NCBI GenBank assembly: GCA_021732415.1
Contig: JAKFVC010000017.1
Span: forward strand, 1-44,711
DNA length: 44,711 nucleotides
Source: Planctomycetaceae bacterium
GTDB lineage: Bacteria > Planctomycetota > Planctomycetia > Planctomycetales > Planctomycetaceae
Reading direction: 5' to 3'
In this document: positions 2,939 through 36,396 of the stretch, piece by piece
Layout: each line of letters begins with the position of its first letter
Numbering within the stretch: the first letter of the stretch is position 1
The notes under the pieces: model-generated
Databases searched by the model: none
The model's input: the letters and a program-made list of their open reading frames with translations, nothing else
What the model was told of the DNA's origin: nothing
Translations under genes and position numbers: made by a program

Positions 2939-3832
2939 TTAAAACTCGCCGAGGACGTTGCCGTCGTTATGGATGCCGAAGTTTTGCCAGAGCGTCAGAT
3001 TGATATTGTCACTGACGAAGCGGACTGAGCCATCACAGATTAACGTATGCACTCCGCCCACATGTCGGCTGCGAGACGAGAGAATCACGGCCCGGTTGTT
3101 CCAGGCTGAATACACTCCCGTACACGGAGCGTAGGTCTGATTACTACAGGCCACACCGGATCGAAAATTATCGGGAATTCCCGTGTTCGGTGTCCGGTTA
3201 TGCTGATACAGCGGCCCCTCGGGATAGTGCATCACTCCGCGGAAGTCATCGGCCGGAGCCTTGACCAGTTCGCTGACCAACGCCGTGTTCGAACTGCCAT
3301 CGGTGACATCTCGCAGCCCGCGGTTCACTCGCGTTTCGAACATAGCCACCGGCCCCCGGGCGGGAGCACTCGGATTGACGTCCGACGTATTCACTTGCGG
3401 ACCGATGCCGTTGTTGCCGGCATAATTTCCGCGGCCGTAATAGGTCAAGGAAGGACCGCTATTCGGATCCGAGGGACATTGGAATCCAGGCACCAGCGTT
3501 TGCGAGATCGTCGTATTGTTGTTCGGCAGGCTCCCGAAATTCTGAGCCAGGTTTTGTGTCTTATAGAGGTTAGTCAGTTCGAGATAAGGATAGATCGACA
3601 AGATCCAGGTGTTCTCACCGACGGGATAGTAGTACCCATTGGGGAACATGTTGAAGGTGTCGTGATAATTGTGCAGCGCGAGCCCAATCTGTTTGAGATT
3701 GTTCTTACACTGCGATCGCCGAGCCGCTTCCCGAGCCTGCTGGACAGCCGGCAGCAACAAGGCGATCAGGACGGCGATGATGGCGATGACCACCAGCAAT
3801 TCAATCAGCGTGAAACCCTTTCGAATCCGCAT
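2939..3832 (-). CDS. DUF1559 domain-containing pseudopilin-like protein
   Basis: The N-terminus ([18 protein letters not shown]) is a type IV prepilin/type II secretion pseudopilin signal, with expected prepilin peptidase cleavage after the Gly of KGFTLIE. A long hydrophobic helix follows. The [18 protein letters not shown] segment after it is the hallmark of the DUF1559 family, which is hugely expanded in planctomycetes. Near the C-terminus the H-x9-DG motif is intact ([12 protein letters not shown]). The length of 297 residues is normal for the family. The product should sit in the inner membrane with its body outside; its biological role is not established. It is a close paralogue of the gene at 4844-5749, sharing [11 protein letters not shown] and PNTGIPD. 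Confidence 0.93.
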
Positions 3833-33809: not shown

Positions 33810-35207
33810 ATGAGTACCCCAGCCGTCAATAAATTGCGTGTGCTGTTCGTCGATGACGAGGCACCGATTCGCGAAGTCATGAAGAACGAACTCCCCCGCA
33901 TGGGCCACGACGCCACCATCTGCGAAGACGGTCGAGCCGCCCTGGAAGTTCTCGAGAAGCATACGTTCGACGCGGCCATCATCGACCTCCGGATGCCGGG
34001 CCTCAGCGGTTGGGATGTGGTCGAGCACATCAAACGCGTTGCCCCGGAAACGGAGATCATCATCAGTACCGGTCACGGCAACATGGACGACGCCATCCGC
34101 GCCCTGCGGAGTGGTGCGTATGACTTCCTGCCGAAGCCCGTCAAGCTGGTCACGATCTCCAACGTGCTGCAGCGGGTCGCCGAAAAACGCTCGATGGTCA
34201 ATCAGAAGATTGCTCTCGAAGTTCAACTGACTGCCGTCCAAGGAGCCCGGGACCTCGTCGGCAGCACGGCCGCCATGCAACGCGTCAAGAAGCTGATCGA
34301 ACGGATTGCCCCGACGGAATCGAGCGTCCTCATCCTCGGTGAGACCGGCACGGGCAAAGAACTCGTCGCCCGGCGGGTGCATGATCTCAGCAATCGGGCC
34401 AACATGCCGTTTGTCGCGGTCAACTGCGGAGCTTTGCCGGAAAACCTTGTCGAAAGCGAACTCTTCGGACATCGCAAGGGAGCCTTCACGGGTGCCGATG
34501 CGCCGCGGAAGGGACTGATTGAAGTCGCTAACGGCGGGACACTGTTCCTCGACGAATTGGGCGAGCTCGACAAGTCGATGCAGGTGAAACTGCTGCGGTT
34601 TTTGGAATCGGGGGAAGTTCGTCGCGTGGGTGAAAATGAAGCCTTCATGGTCGATGTTCGCATCGTGTGTGCGACCAATCGTGATCTGCAGGAAATGGTC
34701 GAAGAAGGCAAGTTCCGCGAAGATTTGTTCTTCCGCGTCAACACGTTCGAGATCCACCTGCCGGCCCTGCGTGAGCGCAAGGAAGATATCCCGGAACTTG
34801 CTACGGCACTGATTGCCCGGCACCTGAAACGACGCACGATTTCAGAGGATTTCCTCACTCCGGAAGTCATCGAACTGCTGAAGAATCATCATTGGAGCGG
34901 CAACGTTCGCGAGCTGGCCAATGCCCTGGAGCACGCGGTGATCATGGCCGCTGGCAAGGCACTGACCGTAGACGATCTGCCGGCCAGCATCGTCGGCCGC
35001 AATCGCAAATCGGCCAAGAGCAGCACGGGAAGCTTCACCCGGATCGATGGCGCGAAGACGTTGCGCGAAATCGAAATGGATGTGATTCATCAATGCCTGG
35101 AAAAGCACCAGGGAGACAAACCCAAGGTCGCCCAGGAACTGGGGATTTCCCTGAAGACGCTCTATAACAAGCTGAATCAGAACACGAATTCCGCCGCCGC
35201 GAGTTGA
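33810..35207 (+). CDS. Sigma-54-dependent response regulator (NtrC family)
   Basis: The 465-residue protein has a receiver domain (1-125) with the acidic pair Asp15-Asp16, phospho-acceptor Asp59 (IIDLRMPG) and Lys109. The AAA+ sigma-54 activation domain has Walker A GETGTGKE (177-184), the sigma-54-contact loop GAFTGA (224-229) and Walker B GTLFLDE. A Fis-type helix-turn-helix ends the protein (KVAQELGISLKTLYNKLN). All key residues are intact. It should activate sigma-54 promoters when phosphorylated by the kinase at 31795. AAGGAG lies eight bases before the ATG. Target genes are unknown; no sigma-54 promoter was identified here. Confidence 0.94.
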   Translation: MSTPAVNKLRVLFVDDEAPIREVMKNELPRMGHDATICEDGRAALEVLEKHTFDAAIIDLRMPGLSGWDVVEHIKRVAPETEIIISTGHGNMDDAIRALRSGAYDFLPKPVKLVTISNVLQRVAEKRSMVNQKIALEVQLTAVQGARDLVGSTAAMQRVKKLIERIAPTESSVLILGETGTGKELVARRVHDLSNRANMPFVAVNCGALPENLVESELFGHRKGAFTGADAPRKGLIEVANGGTLFLDELGELDKSMQVKLLRFLESGEVRRVGENEAFMVDVRIVCATNRDLQEMVEEGKFREDLFFRVNTFEIHLPALRERKEDIPELATALIARHLKRRTISEDFLTPEVIELLKNHHWSGNVRELANALEHAVIMAAGKALTVDDLPASIVGRNRKSAKSSTGSFTRIDGAKTLREIEMDVIHQCLEKHQGDKPKVAQELGISLKTLYNKLNQNTNSAAAS

Positions 35208-35744: not shown

Positions 35745-36341
35745 CTAGAACTTGCGGATCACAGCGACAGCCTTGCCCAGAACCTGGACGCTGTTCGAGA
35801 GGATCGGCTTGGTCTTGCCGCTGGCTTCCAACCGGACACGGTGTGCTTCTTTGTAGTACACGCGGAGCACGGGGTCCGCACCGTCGATCAGCGCCAACAC
35901 GATGTCGCCATCTTGAGCACTCTTCGTGCGTTTCAGAACGACGGTGTCGCCATCGGTGACGTGAGCATCAGCGAGAGTCTCGCCGGTGGCCGTCACGCTG
36001 AAGTTGTCTTCATTTTCGAACAACGGAGCGAAGTCCAACTGGTCGCCACGGTCGAGGACTTCCAACGGGTTGGCACCATTCAGGCGACCAACGCTGGCCA
36101 GAGACGAACGTGACAACGGCTGATCGGACAACTGAATGGCACGTGACATGTGGGCTTCGCGAGAGATCAAACCCTTGCGTTCGAGAGCCTTCAAGTGACA
36201 CATGACACCATTGGGGGAACGAATTCCAAACTGTGCCCCAATTTCTCGCACCGTGGGACCGTACCCACGCTTCAGAATCTTCTCTTTCAGGAACTCAAAG
36301 ATTTCCTGCTGGCGTTGGGTCAAAATTGGCTTTTGCTTCAT
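35745..36341 (-). CDS. lexA: LexA-family repressor with degenerate self-cleavage site
   Basis: The 198-residue protein matches LexA along its length. The N-terminal winged helix-turn-helix is clear (LTQRQQEIFEFL, PTVREIGAQFGIRSPNGV, HLKALERKGLI). The C-terminal peptidase/dimer domain aligns, but three essential features are replaced. The cleavage site Ala84-Gly85 of E. coli LexA corresponds to Gly89-Ala90 (GRLNGANPL). The nucleophile Ser119 corresponds to Thr122 (ATGETLADAH, codon ACT at 35976-35978). The general base Lys156 corresponds to Leu159 (ADPVLRVYY, codon CTC at 35865-35867). DNA binding should persist, while RecA-stimulated self-cleavage looks impossible. GGAGG lies ten bases before the ATG. 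Confidence 0.9.
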   Translation of the reverse strand: MKQKPILTQRQQEIFEFLKEKILKRGYGPTVREIGAQFGIRSPNGVMCHLKALERKGLISREAHMSRAIQLSDQPLSRSSLASVGRLNGANPLEVLDRGDQLDFAPLFENEDNFSVTATGETLADAHVTDGDTVVLKRTKSAQDGDIVLALIDGADPVLRVYYKEAHRVRLEASGKTKPILSNSVQVLGKAVAVIRKF

Positions 36342-36380: not shown

Positions 36381-36396
36381 GTTGACACAAATCAAC
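36381..36396. promoter_or_regulatory. Candidate lexA operator, GTTGA-N6-TCAAC dyad
   Basis: GTTGACACAAATCAAC has five-base arms and a six-base spacer, centred 47 bases upstream of the lexA start. LexA proteins usually repress themselves from such a place, but LexA operators differ between phyla. No second copy was noticed elsewhere in the window, so this is a suggestion only. Confidence 0.35.

Follow-up and report, generated by a model that had tools for sequence, protein, structure and literature searches.

A conserved, probably non-cleavable LexA homologue at the ancestral lexA locus of a member of the Planctomycetaceae

The DNA analysed here (the window, a stretch of 44,711 nucleotides from a Planctomycetaceae bacterium) carries a gene that probably encodes a conserved non-cleavable LexA-type repressor at the ancestral lexA locus, while other LexAs would take care of SOS induction. 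In textbook accounts, bacteria trigger the SOS response through self-cleavage of LexA. As judged from sequence, the DNA-binding domain of the window protein is kept, its scissile bond, Ser and Lys are replaced, purifying selection on the gene is strong, its position is conserved and more copies occur in the genus. Such a protein would fold and dimerise like LexA, bind LexA-type palindromic operators and repress, and activated RecA would be unable to remove it. Repression would be permanent, or would last until another signal (modification, ligand or proteolysis) releases the protein. Induction by DNA damage would be carried by separate catalytically intact LexAs, often adjoining imuA-imuB.

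Domains, fold and catalytic residues

The following features were assigned to the gene:

35745..36341, minus strand: predicted non-cleavable LexA homologue, 198 aa (open reading frame, TIGR00498, PF01726, PF00717, AlphaFold2 model)
36138..36323, minus strand: LexA winged-helix DNA-binding domain, residues 7-68 (PF01726 match)
35766..36050, minus strand: S24 peptidase-like C-terminal domain, catalytically degenerate (PF00717 match and structure alignment)
36072..36077, minus strand: former scissile pair, Gly89-Ala90 for Ala-Gly (three alignments)
35976..35978, minus strand: former nucleophile Ser, Thr122 (three alignments)
35862..35864, minus strand: former base Lys, Arg160 (alignments; Leu159 in one alignment)

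By domains and fold, the window protein is an intact LexA homologue. It passes the NCBIfam equivalog model for LexA (TIGR00498; 155.1 bits, cut-off 110.95), its LexA winged helix is recognised by PF01726 (82.6 bits, cut-off 23.7) and an S24 fold follows after a linker (PF00717; 42.7 bits, cut-off 23.3). The recognition segment SPNGVMCHLKAL is identical in a catalytically intact LexA of the same host, C46. The winged helix-turn-helix is intact, as a sequence-only reading of this DNA had stated. LexA crystal structures are the top structural matches of an AlphaFold2 model built from 15 input sequences (pLDDT 76.3, pTM 0.69). Residues 80-198 align with the C-terminal domain of LexA S119A (1jhh_B) at Z 12.7 and 2.5 A over 102 residues; the hinge and the old cleavage loop (residues 86-110) are modelled with pLDDT below 50.

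Autoproteolytic LexAs are recognised by Ala-Gly (or Cys-Gly), Ser and Lys, and the aligned window protein has none of these. All three alignments agree that Ala84-Gly85 of E. coli LexA corresponds to Gly89-Ala90 and Ser119 to Thr122, both as first proposed. Lys156 had been assigned to Leu159. A single alignment, A3, gave that pairing; it compares the protein with viral LexAs, which have one residue fewer ahead of the strand in question. Arg160 is the better match, both against the nearest intact homologue C46, where the alignment is gap-free, and in a larger alignment that includes E. coli LexA; either way no Lys is present. All 48 lexA loci listed in the larger alignment keep Ala-Gly, Ser and Lys. 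The original suggestion that the protein seems unable to cleave itself is, on these alignments, well supported.

Position of the gene

The window gene has a convergent neighbour that serves as a marker of the ancestral lexA locus:

33810..35207, plus strand: NtrC-type response regulator with receiver, sigma-54 interaction and Fis-type HTH domains

Of 48 loci with intact lexA, each compared over a flank of up to 1.5 kb, 21 have this regulator in convergent orientation, and other families of the class are included among them. Altered lexA genes have it as a neighbour too, in 11 out of another 23 loci: it is convergent in g11, g13 and g284 (five loci) and on the same strand in g301 (six loci). 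These 23 were read from a set of 30, the remaining seven being duplicates of genes already counted. Since a convergent NtrC-type regulator is common with intact lexA, the window gene appears to be the ancestral lexA altered in place. Its synteny with the regulator speaks against a simple paralogue, one of the possibilities raised at the outset; by position the gene is the orthologue of lexA, and the genus copies branch within the clade of the window gene.

A phage or plasmid source was rejected, full-length matches being 30-35% identical (best 15 per search). Most of the 80 viral loci kept match the DNA-binding domain only. In two viral contigs (L163 and L164, match 3001-3207) a LexA-type DNA-binding domain that shares 65% identity with the one in the window protein is joined to an unrelated C-terminal part, and two more (L166, L167) carry such a domain in open frames 129 and 115 residues long. 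These four proteins are possible phage-borne binders of LexA sites that have no protease domain.

Other LexAs of the host

The host genome (G000; 9.87 Mb, 98% complete) encodes five full LexA homologues. Three have a broken active site (the window gene on contig C57, C7 and C130), and two have intact catalytic residues (C46 and C161). An extra LexA DNA-binding domain stands alone in a short frame at a contig end (L016, G000:C218:8-193). recA is present in the host, and a recA above cut-off was detected in three of the four genus genomes. A search for a second lexA and for recA, recommended along with the first description of the gene, found both.

Upstream of C46 lie imuA, imuB and the error-prone DNA polymerase gene dnaE2, although the ImuA model scores 91.6 bits at this cassette, below its cut-off. 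C161 has a divergent DNA-binding domain and adjoins another imuA-imuB pair. In trees C46 groups with LexAs of genus g6, and its surroundings have 61% GC, higher than the 57-59% of the window and of four further stretches of the host; horizontal gain is therefore inferred. The whole imuA-imuB-dnaE2-lexA cassette (L012:127-6484), with 61% GC and its lexA nearest another genus, is likely an imported SOS mutasome cassette.

LexAs across the family

A first control comprised 40 loci of the same family and 40 from outside it, drawn non-randomly from score-ranked lists. All 40 sampled LexAs outside the family are intact (38 by alignment and the other two, L348 and L358, by eye). Inside the family 12 of 40 are not, which rules out a loss limited to one genus. 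A directed search covered 66 family genomes, picked non-randomly as low-scoring or already suspect; the survey as a whole leaves aside the residues of about 32 of 170 family genomes.

In total, 148 main-type LexA sequences from 135 genomes were classified, 81 as intact (C46 included) and 67 as not intact. The count per genome covers a non-random set of 134 genomes in 55 genera, omitting three sequences shorter than 160 aa and the genus of the window. By this count, 71 genomes had only intact and 45 only broken main-type LexAs, "only" referring to the fetched sequences, as extra copies in a genome may be missed. Eight genomes had both kinds, and the remaining 10 keep Ser and Lys with the scissile pair changed or unalignable.

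Among 54 broken LexAs, 37 have lost Ser, 48 Lys and 31 both, the class being defined by sequence such that 17 members keep Ser (Lys lost) and six keep Lys (Ser lost). Their recognition helix reads SPNGV in 52 of 54 cases, and their DNA-binding domain is no less conserved than in 80 intact LexAs (mean entropy 0.84 bits, compared with 0.95 bits in the intact set). The four catalytic positions range from 1.0 to 2.6 bits in the broken set; their zero entropy in the intact set follows from how that set was defined. Entropy of the C-terminal domain is 1.99 bits in broken and 1.08 bits in intact LexAs, as would be expected if selection on this domain had relaxed somewhat in the long term. When broken LexAs are paired within a genus, the 20 pairs with dS of 0.05-1.2 have dN/dS between 0.00 and 0.15.

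Several variants were met on the way. Cys replaces the catalytic Lys in 22 of the 54 broken LexAs (genera g11, g13, g269, g284 and g303), where it might sense redox state. One protein (L368, G411:C57) has two LexA DNA-binding domains in tandem in a single open frame of 395 aa, and two others (L447 and L448, in G403 and G457) have LexA-type DNA-binding domains with no recognisable S24 part, as in the solitary host domain L016. An intact second-LexA subtype with helix SPTSV occurs alongside the broken main LexA in g268, g276 and g296 (L312, L419, L421, L422, L426, L427, L429).

Second LexAs were examined in 20 regions, all taken from genomes whose main LexA is altered. Ser and Lys are kept in 17 and the Ser/Lys motif was not found in the other three; an imuA match lies within about 1.3 kb in 10 of the 20 (G307, G344, G395, G429, G459, G467, G468, G474, G478 and G505). 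These counts support, rather than prove, a division of labour between the two kinds of LexA. Several broken-only genomes (e.g. G404, G405, G408 and G494) showed no second LexA domain, so that either this division is not general or a second LexA was missed there.

Coexistence of both kinds admits another, distinctly less likely reading, to which we still give some weight. The window protein could compete or form mixed dimers with a cleavable LexA at common operators, and the regulon would then open only partly on damage. The recognition segment identical to that of C46 in the same genome speaks for this, as does one genome (G461, g298) in which a Lys-to-Arg copy stands beside two intact LexAs with nearly the same helix. 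However, no C46-type intact LexA was found in the three other genus genomes (85, 87 and 97% complete), and in seven of the eight genomes with both kinds (those of g268, g276 and g296) the intact partner reads DNA through the different helix SPTSV. The 45 of 134 genomes that showed only broken main-type LexAs likewise argue against it. Moreover, divergence between the window protein and C46 is greatest in the C-terminal part that would have to dimerise (dN 0.58, compared with 0.14 in the DNA-binding domain).

Copies within the genus

The named records of the genus are Planctomycetaceae bacterium MAGs (RYN_439, RYN_440) and MAGs labelled Planctomicrobium piriforme (series LH-05nov19). Broken copies were detected in all three other genus genomes: one in G392, eleven loci in G393 (of which three are truncated at contig ends and two lose the frame at one end) and two plus a 28-residue fragment in G394. 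One copy lies in a genome from another genus (G530) of the same LH-05nov19 series, where the contig is 3.2 kb long and a binning error is possible. The 16 genus copies in the tree form one clade (support 100/100), with the window orthologues as its first branch. The C130 group has multiplied in G393, its members having about 100 bp of upstream DNA in common. In these copies (L023-L025, L027, L029-L031) a unit of about 700 bp, the gene with this upstream DNA, recurs between flanks that are otherwise little alike.

Apart from the window gene, 16 copies of the genus clade cover the site, one of which is partial, and none has Ala-Gly, Ser or Lys. As the change recurs in 16 of 16 copies and LexAs outside the family are intact in 40 of 40, it goes beyond chance. 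Among the 17 copies the nucleophile position holds T, A, F, G, V, D or L, and the Lys position holds Arg in 16 and Gln in one. A rebuilt active site is disfavoured because the former position varies while the latter is almost uniformly Arg.

In a rival reading, Thr122 and Arg160 still cut Gly89-Ala90 or a nearby bond, slowly or with a partner. The K156R mutant of E. coli LexA shows slow cleavage at high pH, and Arg160 could serve as a poor base, which counts against the main reading. Thr and Arg are mild replacements, and both are kept in the window gene and two orthologues. Nevertheless, we regard a variant protease as very improbable: some copies under purifying selection (C130, G393_197, G394_258 and G530_280) have Ala, Val or Phe in place of the nucleophile, and the scissile pair is also lost and variable.

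Selection

The window gene and its orthologue in the sister species (G393_710) differ in one of 198 amino acids (dN 0.002, dS 0.18, dN/dS 0.012), with dN/dS of 0 in the DNA-binding and 0.018 in the C-terminal domain. Against the G392 orthologue dN/dS is 0.09, among all window orthologues it ranges from 0.012 to 0.10, and in the C7 group it is 0.019-0.027. Both halves of the window protein are guarded by selection, the dead protease domain included. The loss of all catalytic residues had been ascribed to relaxed or redirected selection; these ratios do not support relaxation for the window gene and do support redirection.

That the gene is decaying as selection relaxes, or that it is an artefact of assembly or binning, is hardly credible: two G393 copies (G393_327 and G393_543) are indeed out of frame at one end and have a mutual dN/dS of 0.43, but the values of 0.012-0.10 in window orthologues and the C7 group rule out decay of the window gene, and syntenic orthologues with matching flanks in other MAGs, RYN_439 and RYN_440, rule out a binning artefact at its locus.

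Candidate operator and regulon

Three orthologues have a palindrome at the same place ahead of the gene:

36381..36396, no strand assigned: candidate operator GTTGATTTGTGTCAAC (read on the minus strand), 5-bp inverted arms, 6-bp spacer

G392 has ATTGATGCGTGTCAAT instead, with a change in each half of the outer pair. Conservation of the palindrome together with this paired change hints at self-regulation and is suggestive only. A 6-4-6 arrangement was considered and dropped, as no perfect 6-4-6 exists at the site.

According to passages of an earlier study (PMC3108266), LexA of planctomycetes fails to recognise the motif of E. coli. A family LexA box, AnTGTACA-nn-TGTACAnT, was derived de novo from 70 lexA and imuA upstream regions (log-likelihood 102.7, compared with 29.8 and 27.3 in two single-base shuffles). 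This model gives only 3.6 bits on the palindrome of the window gene and 1.4 bits upstream of the host's intact lexA C46; recA promoters have no clear family box (5.5-5.7 bits). Strict matches to the box number 5, 7, 2 and 0 in the four genus genomes, against 22, 23, 19 and 12 for a reversed-pattern control. The pattern RTTGAYNNNNRTCAAY occurs at 25, 27, 35 and 24 places in these genomes and its reversed control at 7, 5, 2 and 2, an excess that base composition may account for. The operator and box searches of the genus genomes yielded no target gene or signal for the window protein.

A promoter of the form GTAGTTGAC-N16-GTAGACTATAGT was dropped as a LexA-like candidate, since it is also present in G216, whose fetched LexA is intact. 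A strongly conserved promoter with a palindrome, CGAGCGTAGTTGAC-N16-GTAGACTATAGTCYAC, was observed upstream of a small CxxCxGxG-repeat protein in G000 and G392; it is also present in G393 and four times in G216 (places L259, L260, L268, L271 and six more).

Number of losses

A branch with SH-aLRT 96 in the LexA tree sets apart 75 of the 77 altered rows. This topology allows one origin, and the program warns of long branches meeting. The tree of the neighbouring regulator disagrees with it on the number of losses: altered rows require three changes, and a single change suffices in none of 200 bootstrap trees. Well-supported branches of the regulator tree, taken alone, force only one change. Either the change would have arisen separately elsewhere in the family, in its other genera, or one ancient change would have been inherited.

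A broader reading is that much of the Planctomycetaceae uncoupled its main lexA from DNA damage, perhaps several times, and that other LexAs, often with error-prone repair cassettes, took over. We hold it tentatively, at slightly less than an even chance. If true, the RecA-LexA switch is a part that evolution removes while the repressor stays. Loss at the native locus in many genera, with the DNA-reading half kept, would constitute a natural experiment on a LexA regulon closed to RecA. An SOS response should not be read into the label "transcriptional repressor LexA", as the window protein passes the model cut-off with none of the catalytic residues.

Comparison with known systems

No report of a non-cleavable LexA in planctomycetes was found among the open-licence papers listed. 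The window protein has the domain order, fold and DNA-binding domain of E. coli LexA (PDB 1jhf, 1jhh, 3jso). Unlike it, the protein has no Ala-Gly, Ser or Lys and in effect resembles laboratory non-cleavable mutants; the G85D and S119A LexA structures are among the structural matches of its model.

Other unusual LexAs resemble the window protein in part, as far as the passages cited here describe them. IrvR of Streptococcus mutans is LexA-like and uncoupled from RecA, as proposed for the window protein, but it still self-cleaves in a RecA-independent manner (PMC7101444). Leptospira interrogans has a second LexA, as does the host of the window; this LexA2, unlike the window protein, keeps Ser, Lys and a Cys-Gly bond, and UV-C depletes it, presumably via cleavage (PMC3789691). 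Some Bacteroidetes species have several SOS-repressor paralogues of a non-canonical LexA type. In contrast to the window protein, their DNA-binding part is not homologous to LexA, and the scissile bond and Ser-Lys dyad are conserved (PMC8565304).

The nearest precedent is LexA of the cyanobacterium Synechocystis sp. PCC 6803, in which the scissile pair is Gly-Gly and Ser119 is replaced by Asp. The cited parts of the reports state that no cleavage products were seen under salt stress, suggest non-SOS targets and consider that phosphorylation perhaps tunes its activity (PMC3091678, PMC7567884). The window protein is likewise without the scissile pair and Ser, a likeness of state and not of descent (PMC3091678). 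Judged by the same passages, it differs from Synechocystis LexA in that Lys is also lost, the gene occupies a syntenic lexA locus and intact LexAs coexist with it; in addition, further copies occur in the genus, and main LexAs are altered in many genera.
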